A DNA stretch of 29,363 nucleotides, from positions 1 through 29,363 of the IMG/VR virus record IMGVR_UViG_3300033388_001798. One strand, written 5' to 3'. The position numbers and the translations under genes were made by a program. Under the pieces are notes generated by a model. It was not told the origin of the DNA. It did not search any database and saw nothing but the letters and a program-made list of their open reading frames with translations. Positions 1,093 through 6,220 of this stretch are shown here, one piece after another. Within the stretch, counting starts at the first letter, position 1. Every line of letters begins with the position of its first letter. The DNA comes from a virus.

Positions 1093-1534
1093 GTGCCATT
1101 TAACATAATGCGCCCATGGGATGCACTGCAAAAAGCGTGCCATTTAACATAATGCAATTGGCATGTTTTTTGCCGGGGCAAGTACCGTGCCATTTAACAT
1201 AATGCATTGAAAAATAAAAAGATATTATGTTAAATAGCCTATTGACAAACGCAAGCAGGCATGCTAAAATCCATGGGTGGGTCAGGGGCTACCCTGTAAA
1301 AAAAGCGTTTTTTGCATTATGTTAAATGGCATGGATTTTGAGAATGCAATAGGCGTGCCATTTAACATAATGCGCGAAAGTCAAAACAGTGCGGGCGAGT
1401 TAACATAACGCGCAAATGAGATTGATTCGCTTTACGCGAAAGTCGTCCACCCTCCGCGTCCACCCCTCCCTGATTCGAGATACAACAATACATGACAAAC
1501 GCAACCATTGCAAGCCCTATTTGACATAATACGC
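1093..1534. repeat. cluster of GTGCCATTTAACATAATGC repeats
   Basis: Full forward copies are at 1093-1111, 1137-1155, 1187-1205 and 1355-1373. Reverse copies are at 1222-1240 (core only) and 1314-1332 (18 of 19 bases). Degenerate forward copies are at 1400-1411 (TTAACATAACGC) and 1519-1534 (ATTTGACATAATACGC). The six good copies share the 11-bp core ATTTAACATAA. Its reverse complement TTATGTTAAAT equals the XerD-binding arm of the E. coli dif site, but no XerC arm is present at the proper spacing. The cluster flanks the promoter at 1242. Iterons or repressor sites are the likely roles. Confidence 0.85.
1242..1270 (+). promoter_or_regulatory. strong sigma70 promoter inside the repeat cluster
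   Basis: TTGACA (1242-1247), an exact 17-bp spacer and TAAAAT (1265-1270), with an extended -10 TGC just before it. Reverse-oriented repeats at 1222-1240 and 1314-1332 sit just upstream and just downstream, the arrangement expected for a repressed promoter. No gene starts within 500 bp downstream. Confidence 0.75.
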
Positions 1535-1795: not shown

Positions 1796-1972
1796 ATGAA
1801 CCATCCAGTTTTTGACCTCGCTTGGATCAGCCTTGAAGTCCTGAAGGGATTTTCAAAAGAGACCACGAAAGAATGGGCGAATGATTTCCTCGCTAACAAT
1901 TCTGATCACCCTGCAGTCGCGGAAGCCAGAAAAGAATTCGCCATTGCAATCGCAAACCATAACGGAGTATAG
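1796..1972 (+). CDS. hypothetical protein, 58 aa
   Basis: The start at 1796 is chosen because AACGGAGT (1781-1788) sits upstream at the usual distance and the promoter at 1742-1769 lies just before it. Longer in-frame starts would precede the promoter. The 58-residue product looks helical and acidic-amphipathic (EVLKGFSKETTKEWANDFLA) with no Cys, signal peptide or membrane span. Its last codons are AAC GGA GTA TAG: the start element of the next gene doubles as the end of this one, giving the C-terminus NGV. First gene of an early operon; function unknown. Confidence 0.65.
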   Translation: MNHPVFDLAWISLEVLKGFSKETTKEWANDFLANNSDHPAVAEARKEFAIAIANHNGV

Positions 1973-1976
1973 GAAA

Positions 1977-2438
1977 ATGAAAAAATTCAGCATTCAAACC
2001 CGGCTTATCGATTGCCATTCTGTCCGCTACGTAGTTTTGGACGTACGCGGAAACCAAGTAGGCACAATGGAATTTAAAGAGGAATGGGAAGCGCGACTAG
2101 CTGCAGTACATTGGGCATGCGCCCCCTCGCTGGTAAAACAGCTTAACCTTAAAAAGGTAGATGGCATTTTTTCCGGTCGCCCGTTTGGCGGCGTGAAAGT
2201 CGAAAGCATGTATAAGCAGGCTAGCGGCGAATGGCGCGCAATTGTCACGGTAGATGGCGAGCGGGTAACCTACATTGCCAATACGCAAAAAGCCGTTTGC
2301 CTGCTGATCAAGGCGCACGGGGACGATATCAAAATCACGCGTAATATCCTGAACCCTGCAAGCCGGGAAATCAGAATTGCCCGTAGCGAATGGGGCGGAT
2401 GCACTGACCCCGGAACTGAAACTTATCATTGCATGTAA
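1977..2438 (+). CDS. hypothetical protein, 153 aa
   Basis: ATG at 1977 follows AACGGAGTATAGGAAA, the conserved early start element, four bases after the previous stop, so the longer in-frame alternative upstream is rejected. The product has a first half with predicted beta strands (YVVLDVRGNQVGTMEF) and a Trp-containing helix, then a second strand-rich segment (EWRAIVTVDGERVTYIA). It has no transmembrane segment and no recognisable catalytic motif. It resembles typical soluble early phage proteins of unknown function and belongs to the operon starting at the 1742 promoter. Confidence 0.75.
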   Translation: MKKFSIQTRLIDCHSVRYVVLDVRGNQVGTMEFKEEWEARLAAVHWACAPSLVKQLNLKKVDGIFSGRPFGGVKVESMYKQASGEWRAIVTVDGERVTYIANTQKAVCLLIKAHGDDIKITRNILNPASREIRIARSEWGGCTDPGTETYHCM

Positions 2439-2448
2439 GTGTTAACGG

Positions 2449-2494
2449 TTTGCCCCTTCGAAACTGAGGGGGCAAATAGAGAAACACTTTTTTT
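2449..2494 (+). terminator. hairpin between early genes, possible attenuator
   Basis: TTTGCCCC (2449-2456) pairs perfectly with GGGGCAAA (2469-2476). A run of seven T (2488-2494) follows only after an 11-nt gap, so it is not a canonical terminator. It may attenuate transcription or stabilise the upstream message. Confidence 0.4.
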
Positions 2495-2513
2495 AATTAA
2501 CGGAGTAGAGAAA

Positions 2514-2897
2514 ATGGGATACACTAATTATTGGAACCACGGCAATTTTTCCGATGTAAAATGGGATGCACTTTGCATAGCGGCAGGCGCGATTTTAACT
2601 CACAGCGGAATTTGTGCCGGGTGGGATGGCGAGGGCACGCCGGAAATTACAGCGGATGCAATCACGTTTAATGGCACGGGCGAGGATAGCCACGAAACTT
2701 TCCAAATCACGAAAGCTGCTAGCGATTTTACGTTTTGCAAAACAGCACGCAAGCCCTATGATGCCGTAACGCTTGCAGTACTTATGTGCGCAACCCTGAT
2801 TCTGAAGTCATTCGAATATCACAGTGACGGGGACGGGGAACAAGGGCACGGGGACGCAGCACGCGCCATTGTGCAAGCTGCGGTTATTCGGGCATAG
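2514..2897 (+). CDS. conserved phage protein of the MGYTNYW type, 127 aa
   Basis: ATG at 2514 follows AACGGAGTAGAGAAA. The N-terminus MGYTNYW, a central FNGTGEDSHETFQI and a FCKTARKPYD segment are features recalled from a widespread uncharacterised phage protein family whose members begin MG-T-YW. The C-terminal third is helical, with Asp/Gly-rich HSDGDGEQGHGD before the last helix. Four Cys are present without a clear metal-site spacing. It is the last gene before the 2902 promoter. The role is unknown; the family's usual position among early or accessory genes fits this context. Recognition of the family is from memory. Confidence 0.75.
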   Translation: MGYTNYWNHGNFSDVKWDALCIAAGAILTHSGICAGWDGEGTPEITADAITFNGTGEDSHETFQITKAASDFTFCKTARKPYDAVTLAVLMCATLILKSFEYHSDGDGEQGHGDAARAIVQAAVIRA

Positions 2898-2900
2898 GCT

Positions 2901-2929
2901 ATTGCAATTCAATTGCAATGTGCTATTAT
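2901..2929 (+). promoter_or_regulatory. early promoter embedded in a perfect 19-bp palindrome
   Basis: ATTGCAATTCAATTGCAAT (2901-2919) is a perfect palindrome about one centre base. Its left arm supplies the -35 TTGCAA (2902-2907); after 16 bp comes TATTAT (2924-2929) with extended -10 TGC. A dimeric repressor on the palindrome would exclude RNA polymerase. Confidence 0.65.
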
Positions 2930-2955
2930 GGGCATTCTAAAACGGAGTTTATGAA

Positions 2956-3177
2956 ATGAAAAAATTAATCCTTGCCCTTCCTACCTCGCTCGCCTTTGTC
3001 GCGCTTGCGCCTTTGTTCGCTGTCGTCACAATTGCATTTTCAAAAGCGGCTTTTGGCACGGGCGTGCCTGCCGTGTTTCTTTCCGAGCGTTTCGCCTTTT
3101 TGGTTTTTGACGGGATCACAATTGCAGCGGCTTTTTTCGCGGTCGCAATGTGCACCCTGATTGCTGAGGAACTTTAA
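2956..3177 (+). CDS. small membrane protein with two hydrophobic segments, 73 aa
   Basis: ATG at 2956 follows AACGGAGTTTATGAA and the promoter at 2902-2929. The product has a short basic start (MKK) and two hydrophobic stretches, residues about 4-35 and 47-68, separated by a short loop with Glu and Arg. This fits a two-span inner-membrane protein, or a signal-like first helix plus one span. It contains one Cys near the C-terminus. A 44-aa membrane protein follows directly. Holin-like or superinfection-exclusion roles are possible for such proteins, but nothing in the sequence decides this. Confidence 0.7.
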   Translation: MKKLILALPTSLAFVALAPLFAVVTIAFSKAAFGTGVPAVFLSERFAFLVFDGITIAAAFFAVAMCTLIAEEL

Positions 3178-3179
3178 AA

Positions 3180-3314
3180 ATGAATGCCCTTTTTATTTTC
3201 GCCATTTTGATTTTGGCTATTTGGACCCCGCACATATACGCGGGCATCACTACACGGGTGCGCTATTGGGTGCGCTCGCATAGGGGTTACACTGCACCCC
3301 GTAACGGAGTATAG
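3180..3314 (+). CDS. small membrane protein, 44 aa
   Basis: ATG at 3180 follows the previous stop by two bases, with GAGGA about a dozen bases upstream inside that gene. The N-terminal 20 residues (NALFIFAILILAIW) are a clear single membrane span; the remainder is basic (TTRVRYWVRSHRG), giving an N-out or N-in single-pass topology by charge. The last codons AAC GGA GTA TAG are again the start element of the next gene, as seen at 1961. The repeated NGV ending and tight spacing support this being real despite its size. Function unknown. Confidence 0.6.
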   Translation: MNALFIFAILILAIWTPHIYAGITTRVRYWVRSHRGYTAPRNGV

Positions 3315-3317
3315 AAA

Positions 3318-3779
3318 ATGAGATATGCAAGCGCATTGCGAACTTTTGATTCTGCCCTTTCGATTATGGCTGAGGGGGCACGCCTGCAGGCACGGGCGGA
3401 TACACTCACGATTGAGAATAGTGCATTCTCTACATTCGAGTTATTGCTTACTGCTATAGACTACCGCCCCTCGCTTAGCAGGGCATACCCTGCCACCCGT
3501 GAATTGGGTGCACTGTATGACGCAGCACAGCAGGCACGCGGGGACAGCAGGCGAGCGTTCATGTACGGCACCCCTAAGCGCAAGGGGAGCATAATAGATC
3601 GGCGTAATTGGGTGCCTGCTGATTCATGGTATAGGGTAGCCGACCGCATCACATGGTGGGATAGATACACGCGCCAATGGATAGCCTACTCGCTTGATGG
3701 CAAGGGCTACCAATGCGGACCATGTGACCTGTATAAAAATTCTGATACCCTGCTAAGGGCTGAGGAGTGCCACGACTAG
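3318..3779 (+). CDS. hypothetical protein, 153 aa
   Basis: ATG at 3318 follows AACGGAGTATAGAAA. The N-terminal half is helical and Ala/Leu/Arg-rich (residues 1-75). The second half carries Trp- and Tyr-rich segments (DRRNWVPADSWYRVADR and WWDRYTRQWIAY) and a CGPC pair near residues 133-136. CGPC is the active-site sequence of thioredoxins, but no thioredoxin fold surrounds it, so it is more likely chance or a small metal site. Last gene of the early module, followed by a very strong terminator at 3814-3849. No function assigned. Confidence 0.7.
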   Translation: MRYASALRTFDSALSIMAEGARLQARADTLTIENSAFSTFELLLTAIDYRPSLSRAYPATRELGALYDAAQQARGDSRRAFMYGTPKRKGSIIDRRNWVPADSWYRVADRITWWDRYTRQWIAYSLDGKGYQCGPCDLYKNSDTLLRAEECHD

Positions 3780-3813: not shown

Positions 3814-3849
3814 TGCCCCCCCTTTCGAGGAGGGGCATTTTTTTTTTTT
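3814..3849 (+). terminator. strong intrinsic terminator ending the early module
   Basis: TGCCCC pairs with GGGGCA, continuing after one mismatch with CC/GG around the loop TTTCGA, and is followed by twelve consecutive T (3838-3849). Confidence 0.9.
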
Positions 3850-3969: not shown

Positions 3970-3999
3970 TACAGCAGCACAGGGAGCGGGGGCGCATAG

Positions 4000-4117
4000 T
4001 TAACATAATGCAAGAGACCTGATCACTTAACATAATGCACAGCCCGCTACTTAACATAATGTCCGCGACCCCATACGCCCCCTTTTTGAACGCTCAGCCT
4101 TTATTTTACATAACACG
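4000..4117 (+). repeat. second cluster of TTAACATAATGC repeats
   Basis: TTAACATAATGC at 4000-4011 and 4027-4038, TTAACATAATG at 4051-4061, and a degenerate TTTTACATAACACGC at about 4104-4117. All are in the same orientation, with the first three 24-27 bp apart. They share the core of the 1093-1534 cluster but lack its GTGCCATT left part. Confidence 0.8.
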
Positions 4118-4532: not shown

Positions 4533-5570
4533 ATGACTGTAGAAAACGAAGCGTTTATAGATTTGGAGCAGATTCTGCATGTGCAGGTCAATCTGCTGTG
4601 GATGACAAAGTGGCGAGAGCTTGAGAAGGAAATGAACAAGCTTGCCAACGAAGGCAACTGGGATGCCGCTTTTGCAATTGCTTACAACATTCAGCTGGAT
4701 GACGTGATAAGCGAGACCCGTGCACTCGCACGCACTCTGGCTGAAGCGGCACTGTTTCTCGGGGCTAGCCGTATAGTTAACGCTGAGGATGCAGATTTCT
4801 TCGGCGAACCTGACGAGAGGCTCATTGAGAACGGAGTTGAGCAGTGGAGCATCGTTCTTGAAAGGAATGCTGCTATAGCTCTACAGACCACAGCTGAAAT
4901 CCAACTTGCCAACATGGAGCGCGTCAGAGCCGAAAAAAAACTGACTGAGATTATCAAAGGTGCTCCTGTAGACCTGAGCAGGGTCGGACGACAGGGAACC
5001 CAGTTTTCTCGTGCTGCAGCTGCGCTGATGATAAGCCGCATGTCTACAGCTGGGTTCATGGCACAGGCACAGGCATCTGGGATCAAGACGTATCGAGTCT
5101 CTGAGGTGATGGATGGACGTACCTGTCCTGTGTGTTCCCTGATGCACAACAAGACCTACCCTGTGGCTTCCGGAGTGGCTCTGTCTGGGGTTATCATGGG
5201 TGCCACTGACCCTGAGTCTCTCAAAGCGGTTGCCCCCTTCCCAAGTCAATCTGCAGCCAATGTCAAGCGGCTTGGTGGCATGTCACAGGGGCAACTCATT
5301 TCTGGTGGCATGAATCTTCCTCCGTACCATCCTAACTGTCGTGGCATTGCCACTTTGGAGGTCGAAAATCGCGGAGCTTCGCTCAATGTGTTAGGAGGAA
5401 GTTCCATAGCCCCCGGACATGCTTTGGTCGGCAGCGCAGAGTTGACACCGGAGCAGCTGGGAGCCAGAATGTTCGGCGAATTTGATGATGTGGACGGAAA
5501 CCTGCTTGACGCTGTGTTGGGCGGAGGTGGTGCACTCATCTTTGGTGATAACGAAGGAGAAGACCCATGA
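4533..5570 (+). CDS. minor head protein, MuF / SPP1 gp7 family
   Basis: A head-morphogenesis protein that in related phages sits inside the capsid near the portal and affects DNA packaging or ejection. The N-terminal ~190 residues are helical. The family signature lies in the C-terminal half: DGRTCPVCSLMHNKTYPV (about 194-211) and NLPPYHPNCRG (about 261-271), the Cys/His cluster followed by the PPxHPxCR motif. The last 70 residues are Gly-rich and acidic. At 345 residues it has a normal length. ATG at 4533 has no clear Shine-Dalgarno and probably relies on coupling with the gene ending at 4530. No portal gene precedes it, which is unusual for this family. Confidence 0.88.
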   Translation: MTVENEAFIDLEQILHVQVNLLWMTKWRELEKEMNKLANEGNWDAAFAIAYNIQLDDVISETRALARTLAEAALFLGASRIVNAEDADFFGEPDERLIENGVEQWSIVLERNAAIALQTTAEIQLANMERVRAEKKLTEIIKGAPVDLSRVGRQGTQFSRAAAALMISRMSTAGFMAQAQASGIKTYRVSEVMDGRTCPVCSLMHNKTYPVASGVALSGVIMGATDPESLKAVAPFPSQSAANVKRLGGMSQGQLISGGMNLPPYHPNCRGIATLEVENRGASLNVLGGSSIAPGHALVGSAELTPEQLGARMFGEFDDVDGNLLDAVLGGGGALIFGDNEGEDP

Positions 5571-6220
5571 CGGAAGCACGACGCATTAGAGAGAAGCTGG
5601 GCGTAGATCAGAACATCCTGCTTTCCCCGAAGAAACCTACCCCCAACATGAAGGAAGGCACACTGCTTCAGTGTCTCAGCCACAACGGTGTCTTTTCTGC
5701 CGGGGACTGCGCAAAGATCATTGCTGACAATGCAGACCCTGAGTGGATCACAGGAATGGTTAATGCGCATGCTGCCAGTGACAAACCGAAAGGTTCAGAG
5801 TATCGAAGTTCAAAGCACATCTGGCTGGAGCGTGACGAGAAGAACCTCTGGTGCTTCGACAAGATGCTGGCTGTGGCTATGGCAGCAAACAAGCTGTTCG
5901 AGTTCGACATTGATTTCTTTGAGGCACTGCAGCTGACCCGCTACGACGAAGGTGACCACTACAACTGGCACTTCGATCTGGGTCCGGGCAAGATGGGCAA
6001 CCGCAAGATGTCTATCACAGTGCAATTGAGTTCACCCGACGACTACGAGGGTGGAGACCTTGAAATCCAGCTGATTGACGCGCAGGACTTCTCTGCCCCA
6101 AGGGAGATTGGAAGTGTTAGTGTGTTCCCATCATTCATGAAGCACCGGGTCACACCAGTGACCAAGGGCACCCGATATTCACTAGTTGTGTGGGCTTCCG
6201 GAACCGAGAGGTTCAAGTAG
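5567..6220 (+). CDS. 2-oxoglutarate/Fe(II) dioxygenase (prolyl-hydroxylase / PKHD-like)
   Basis: Predicted soluble non-haem iron dioxygenase that couples decarboxylation of 2-oxoglutarate to hydroxylation of a substrate. The double-stranded beta-helix core carries H135-x-D137 (in NWHFDLG), the distal iron ligand H193 (FPSFMKHRV) and R203 (KGTRYSLVVW) for 2-oxoglutarate binding. The S-x-P-x-DYEGGDL segment is typical of the P4H/PKHD group. At 217 residues it is a complete single domain. It overlaps the minor head gene by ATGA and is transcribed with head genes, so a virion or assembly protein is a plausible substrate. The enzyme class is secure; the substrate is unknown. Confidence 0.9.
   Translation: MTEARRIREKLGVDQNILLSPKKPTPNMKEGTLLQCLSHNGVFSAGDCAKIIADNADPEWITGMVNAHAASDKPKGSEYRSSKHIWLERDEKNLWCFDKMLAVAMAANKLFEFDIDFFEALQLTRYDEGDHYNWHFDLGPGKMGNRKMSITVQLSSPDDYEGGDLEIQLIDAQDFSAPREIGSVSVFPSFMKHRVTPVTKGTRYSLVVWASGTERFK

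Follow-up and report, generated by a model that had tools for sequence, protein, structure and literature searches.

Unrelated phages carry arrays of half-sites resembling the XerD arm of dif beside blocks of small genes

Results

Two half-site clusters lie on either side of a small-gene block

The DNA analyzed here, referred to as the window, is a 29,363-bp fragment of a virus record in IMG/VR (IMGVR_UViG_3300033388_001798). Its right part is a siphophage head–tail module with genes for a Mu-F/ParB-like head protein (4533), a protease (6257), the major capsid protein (8371) and the tape measure protein (24801); a 2OG-Fe(II) oxygenase gene is present within the head module at 5567–6220, where it separates the Mu-F-like gene from that of the protease. 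The capsid protein is 50–54% identical to those of Vibrio phages VH2_2019 and SIO-2, Rhizobium phage RHph_TM16, Rhodobacter phage RcZahn and Stenotrophomonas phage DLP_5, which have genomes of 80–100 kb. To the left of this module, two clusters of a short motif enclose a block of small open reading frames on the plus strand (1796–3779; frames at 1796–1972, 1977–2438, 2514–2897, 2956–3177 and 3318–3779). The frames tested had no Pfam match, and no PHROG match fell below 1e-3, the frame at 2514–2897 giving a weak one (E 0.005). Inside the first cluster, ahead of the block, lies the promoter-like sequence TTGACAAACGCAAGC (1242–1270, plus strand), of the sigma-70-like form TTGACA-N17-TAAAAT with a TG before the second hexamer; with 11 of 12 matches, it is the best of 13 such sequences between 700 and 4400. 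A terminator-like hairpin followed by a T-run (3819–3848, plus strand) closes the block just upstream of the second cluster.

The first cluster had been described in the earlier note as six good and two degenerate copies of the 19-mer GTGCCATTTAACATAATGC. At up to three mismatches the window holds five copies of this 19-mer, compared with none in 100 dinucleotide shuffles; they are exact at 1093, 1137, 1187 and 1355 and have one mismatch at 1314 (minus strand). Six exact copies of the 11-bp core, ATTTAACATAA, are present: on the plus strand at 1098–1108, 1142–1152, 1192–1202 and 1360–1370 (inside the 19-mers 1093–1111, 1137–1155, 1187–1205 and 1355–1373), and on the minus strand at 1225–1235, 6 bp upstream of the −35 hexamer, and 1317–1327. 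Two further plus-strand copies are degenerate, namely AGTTAACATAA at 1398–1408, in which the shorter core TTAACATAA is exact, and ATTTGACATAA at 1519–1529, with one mismatch. The count of six and two thus holds for the core, but a good match to the full 19-mer is confined to five copies, that of the copy at 1225 being limited to the core and its neighbors. The interval 1093–1534 is likewise real, but a scan with the core adds plus-strand sites outside it: an outlier at 893–903 (ACTTAACATAA) and a second cluster at 3998–4113, composed of AGTTAACATAA(TGC) at 3998–4008, ACTTAACATAA(TGC) at 4025–4035, ACTTAACATAA(TGT) at 4049–4059 and, at 4103–4113, ATTTTACATAA, the variant met most often in other arrays. 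At up to one mismatch, 13 cores occur in the window compared with 0.29 expected, a number reached in none of 100 shuffles. The note was right that the copies of the first cluster lie in both orientations and in gene-free DNA, since no open reading frame of at least 60 amino acids occurs between 1100 and 1675. Spacing is irregular, at 24–50 bp. The motif common to all phages described below is shorter, [ACG]-TT[A/t]ACATAA-[T/c], and the GTGCC...GC flanks are typical only of the window and its close relative L006.

Sites turn over while their number is kept

L006, whose head protein is 76% identical to that of the window, carries nine exact copies of TTAACATAA (0.04 expected) in two clusters at places equivalent to those in the window. 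Absence from this intergenic region of relatives, which the earlier note named as a ground for refuting its reading, is thus not seen in this close relative. Alignment of the two sequences shows conservation of TTGACAAACGCAAGC and of the half-site that immediately precedes its −35 hexamer. The sites at 1142, 1192 and 1398 can also be aligned, the degenerate site at 1519 is matched by an exact one, and the terminator-like hairpin has an equivalent at L006 1519–1544. Within the small-gene block, the frame at 3318–3779 alone has a counterpart (71%). The site at 1317 is absent from L006 and the L006 site at 1568 is absent from the window, yet the totals are similar. Because numbers are kept despite this turnover, selection appears to act on the number and density of sites; position-specific operators would be expected to remain fixed. 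The label "iteron-like", by which the cluster was first described, has little support in sites whose spacing and orientation are irregular and whose positions turn over. One end of the L006 record (L006:1–65, at the end of IMGVR_UViG_3300009136_000034) resembles an Illumina/Nextera adapter and is an artefact.

The motif corresponds to the XerD arm of dif

We compared a profile of 147 array sites from 11 phage contigs with the XerD arms of 48 dif sites from Proteobacteria (table in PMC2731167), among which those of E. coli, Vibrio and Pseudomonas are nearly alike. The profile was seeded with the exact core, which favors conserved columns but does not determine which columns vary. The two sets correspond column by column: little or no variation is seen in either at the second T and at CATAA, the outer bases of the arm are loose in both, and the column at dif position 24 has A 0.69 and T 0.28 in the phages compared with A 0.52 and T 0.38 in dif. 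The agreement extends to the first base of the dif center (position 17; T 0.86 and C 0.12 in the phages, T 0.85 and C 0.08 in dif) and ends inside the center, at position 16. Column information is correlated between the two sets (Spearman 0.83–0.85). Of the 38 array sites with one mismatch, 36 differ at the three positions that are variable in dif, and 26 of these 36 carry an A-to-T change giving the arm TTATGTAAA, as found, for example, in the dif sites of Bordetella and Methylobacillus. The array sites thus carry an 11-bp arm that matches proteobacterial dif, and their correspondence to its XerD half, proposed in the earlier note for the core, is supported by this base-by-base agreement.

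XerC arms are lacking

The same note held that no XerC arm lies at the right distance, and this was confirmed with a single qualification. TTATGCG was not enriched at a 6-bp gap among 120 sites, and no XerC arm was found at 6–8 bp in the window or in L006; the exception is one conserved, degenerate candidate in the phages of lineage A (see below), ATTTAACATAA-TATCTA-ATTTGCGTATT. As a positive control, a pdif site of an Acinetobacter plasmid (L337), ATTTAACATAA-TGGGCG-TTATCCGAAAT, does show its XerC arm. No complete dif-like attP, of the kind used by integrative mobile elements exploiting Xer (IMEX), was found in the arrays.

These results bear on the idea that the arrays are Xer recombination sites, intact or decayed, left by an exchange resembling that of dif modules that moves small-gene cassettes. 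Arrays do flank variable small-gene blocks, the lineage A composite resembles an XerD arm, a 6-bp center and a degenerate XerC arm, and in one phage (G060) such a block separates terS from terL, two genes with overlapping homologues in its relative MW202621. Given that XerC arms are not enriched where a true pdif has one, and that a cassette with identical ends was not seen, we regard this origin of the arrays as highly improbable.

Two other arrangements of Xer-related sequence were encountered in viral contigs. L115 and L125, from phage contigs of 155 and 262 kb (G064 and G065), contain several closely spaced sites with a complete dif-like layout, namely a XerD arm, 6 bp and TTATGCGCA. In addition, TTAACATAA-N6-TTATGTTAA palindromes occur in unrelated AT-rich viral contigs (L113, L122, L130, L132 and others), with an excess at 6 bp that coincides with the lower edge of the search; for this reason such convergent pairs were not used as evidence for XerD–XerD dif sites.

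Arrays occur in unrelated phages

Further arrays were sought by pattern scans of IMG/VR, in isolate phages by BLAST, and in bacterial genomes with one strict pattern. They fall into several lineages. Lineage A, with dense arrays, comprises G002 (41 kb, overlapping ends), G055–G059, G062 and G072, which are related to one another and distantly to Stenotrophomonas phage BUCT555, itself lacking the motif. Lineage B consists of the window and L006, and lineage C of G060 (66 kb, 19 exact sites). Lineage D, the weakest member, is G003 (49 kb), with two sites only. In lineage H (G071, G073 and G074) the motif is dispersed, and at promoters where examined. A 266-kb contig, G075, is perhaps a further carrier, its lower GC content making chance matches likelier, and repeats in G076 were left out of the count since they lie within the span of a 3519-aa open reading frame. 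We therefore count at least three independent occurrences (A, B and C); the case is weaker for D and H.

In lineages A and C almost every site of a genome lies at one locus. Exact copies number 2–20 per phage genome or fragment and are clustered, differing in this from the single site per replicon of dif. In 11 contigs, 7.6 kb of array holds 94 exact cores and the 399 kb outside the arrays hold one, which, together with the irregular flanks, rules out chance or tandem expansion as the source of the arrays. The arrays are not a trait of a phage family either. TTAACATAATG was found in none of 50 other IMG/VR relatives collected via the capsid protein, and the motif was found in none of the 17 named phages scanned: exact TTAACATAATG is absent from DLP_5, BUCT555, Mx9, VH2_2019, RHph_TM16 and RcZahn; TTAACATAAT from MW202621, AXL_3, PW916, MW202657 and S72; and TTAACATAA from six Nipunavirus-like phages.

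Apart from the motif, no 8-mer is present in every lineage. When near-complete genomes from A, C and D were compared by blastp, the only protein common to them was TerL, with a DNA polymerase shared in addition by A and C. No common DNA-binding protein was detected in this way, a search that small, fast-evolving proteins could escape, and no tyrosine recombinase (Phage_integrase domain) was found in 18 records. Two small proteins encoded near arrays, Sg1 and Sg2, are restricted to lineage A and to L006 plus G060, respectively. A phage-encoded binder common to all was rejected on these grounds. The simplest inference from one motif in unrelated phages with no shared DNA-binding protein is that a host protein reads it; by exclusion, the distribution of the arrays is host-dependent. 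G003 and G060 come from one IMG sample (3300033144), in keeping with a common host community.

BLAST of the array against phages and plasmids, run to find a host, returned no array, only a true pdif in Acinetobacter plasmids. The strict pattern had one match in GTDB genomes, on a chromosome contig of a deltaproteobacterial MAG, where five tandem 17-bp repeats of CACCTTAACATAATGCA (L010:6047–6123) lie upstream of a chemoreceptor-like gene; this plain tandem repeat is probably unrelated. Our literature search found no paper describing such an array.

Arrays accompany small genes, promoters and, in one phage, DnaA boxes

In the lineage A phages, one small gene, Sg1 (82–107 aa), has the array in front of it or on both sides; it is located between the primase and terS genes and present in every array-bearing member examined (e.g., L114:1827–2096). 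Homologues of Sg1 were not found in BUCT555, in any named phage or in PHROG. Sg1 was considered as a DNA-binding protein and set aside: its AlphaFold2 model (pLDDT 83) matched only ScaR among solved structures, at an uninformative Z of 2.4. G060 has arrays at either end of the small-ORF block between terS and terL. The cargo genes vary, with Sg1 in lineage A and others in B and C, and the arrays are constant.

Promoters are a recurrent neighbor. In the Nipunavirus-like phages G071 and G073 (L327 and L330), most copies, of the form CTATTTAACATAAT, lie in one orientation 18–19 bp upstream of TTGACA-N17-TATAAT-like promoters, and here the sequence looks like a dedicated upstream promoter element. 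The window and L006 have a site 6–7 bp upstream of the conserved TTGACA promoter, and in G059 tandem copies 18–20 bp apart form −35/−10-like pairs, giving 17 promoter-like matches compared with 2.2 expected. These arrangements could be explained by a host transcription factor unrelated to Xer that controls the cassette promoters from operator or activator sites and whose site coincides with the XerD arm by accident. Such a factor would leave the coincidence with the XerD profile, including its tolerated variants, unaccounted for; moreover, many sites have no adjoining promoter-like sequence, and in most arrays neither spacing nor orientation is fixed (13–15 bp in G060, 24–50 bp in the window), in contrast to operators. 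We consider this explanation unlikely, if a serious contender.

Other features recall replication origins, at which the sites would be iterons binding an initiator, aided by host DnaA in at least one phage. Three strict DnaA boxes occur within 30 bp inside the array of G060 (38365–38394; L190:2360–2389), a density reached in none of 2000 shuffles, and this stretch is likely an origin of replication; no strict DnaA boxes lie within the other arrays. Most arrays are AT-richer than their own genomes, and that of lineage A adjoins the primase gene. Cumulative GC skew was set aside as an origin test, since it is inconsistent among arrays, with a minimum at the array in G003, a maximum in G060 and an offset of kilobases in lineage A. 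The arrays resemble iteron-type origins of plasmids and phages in that a short asymmetric site recurs in gene-free DNA of raised AT content; unlike such origins, they are irregular in spacing and orientation and share one site among unrelated phages. Neither regularly spaced direct repeats nor a shared cognate initiator was found, the latter by blastp among A, C and D, the window being a fragment. As a general account of the arrays, an origin therefore seems to us quite unlikely.

Discussion

Our analyses revealed clusters of half-sites with the profile of the XerD arm of dif, an arrangement around small genes, and a scattered distribution among phages of different lineages. The last two, the convergence among unrelated phages and the flanking of small genes, matter more than any claim of the earlier note, and both lay outside its author's view.

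We tentatively propose, at somewhat less than an even chance, that the arrays are not recombination sites but platforms of half-dif sites, located at the regulatory hub of small-gene cassettes and bound by host XerD or a protein with matching specificity. Each TTAACATAA unit would take up a single monomer of a host protein, independently of its neighbors; the most likely candidate is XerD, the chromosome-resolution recombinase. With no XerC arms at 6–8 bp, the bound protein would be unable to form a normal recombination synapse. The platform would sit where the promoter, genes and terminator of the cassette come together, near phage head or packaging genes, and selection would favor many sites per short stretch over exact positions. 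Irregular spacing, mixed orientation and turnover with numbers kept are consistent with monomer binding selected for density. That XerD itself is the binder is suggested by the match of the sites to dif. By analogy with the XerD sites of Bacillus subtilis discussed below, bound XerD may form a dense nucleoprotein complex that serves as a roadblock or a regulator on the phage genome, and not act as a recombinase.

Two considerations argue against XerD. The XerD arms of E. coli, Vibrio and Pseudomonas are nearly uniform, and a generic XerD function should hence be commoner, yet no array was found in named phages (searched by BLAST, the relatives being scanned). The fixed place upstream of promoters in G071 and G073 and the DnaA boxes of G060 suggest other roles. 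Transcriptional control, replication origin and XerD platform are, however, functions that need not exclude one another.

How do the arrays compare with known Xer sites? They share the XerD arm and its tolerated variants with the dif, pdif and dif-module sites of Proteobacteria and Acinetobacter plasmids, where Xer-related sites also flank small accessory genes. Those sites combine a XerC arm, a 6-bp center and a XerD arm, in contrast to the dense, mixed-orientation arrays of XerD arms alone described here. The attP sites of IMEX such as CTXphi are likewise phage-borne XerD arms used by a host enzyme, but include XerC arms and serve integration, whereas these phages have at most one degenerate XerC candidate and no integrase of their own was found. 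The closest likeness is to XDS, the sites at the B. subtilis terminus on which XerD is reported to unload SMC (Karaboja et al. 2021, as cited in PMC10945525). The arrays resemble XDS in being clustered XerD half-sites without a XerC partner, in the proposed recognition by XerD without recombination, and in that several sites may be needed to trap one complex. XDS differ in being chromosomal and from a Firmicute; the arrays lie in phage genomes and have arms of the proteobacterial type.

What might such a platform do for a phage? Eviction of SMC or titration of XerD are attractive but unproven roles. Phage interference with host SMC has a precedent in a viral DNA mimic described as inhibiting MukBEF (PMC7617805); it would have the same target if XerD evicts SMC, but is a protein inhibitor and not an array of DNA sites. 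It is conceivable that unrelated phages of one host group convergently gained arrays that recruit XerD without recombination, to unload or block an SMC complex (of the host or defensive) or to titrate XerD, as a DNA-encoded counter to chromosome-organizing machines. We offer this extension as a long shot.

The half-site arrays of these viruses suggest that a host protein is recruited in a way not described before. One host-type site, arrayed at one locus in phages among which no shared DNA-binding gene could be detected, points cleanly to convergence on a host protein, and the arrays mark a group of phages that may have a host in common. If the protein is XerD, it would have a role on phage DNA beyond recombination, the idea of SMC unloading would extend from Firmicutes to proteobacterial phages, and the arrays would provide a direct test of whether phages must cope with SMC complexes.
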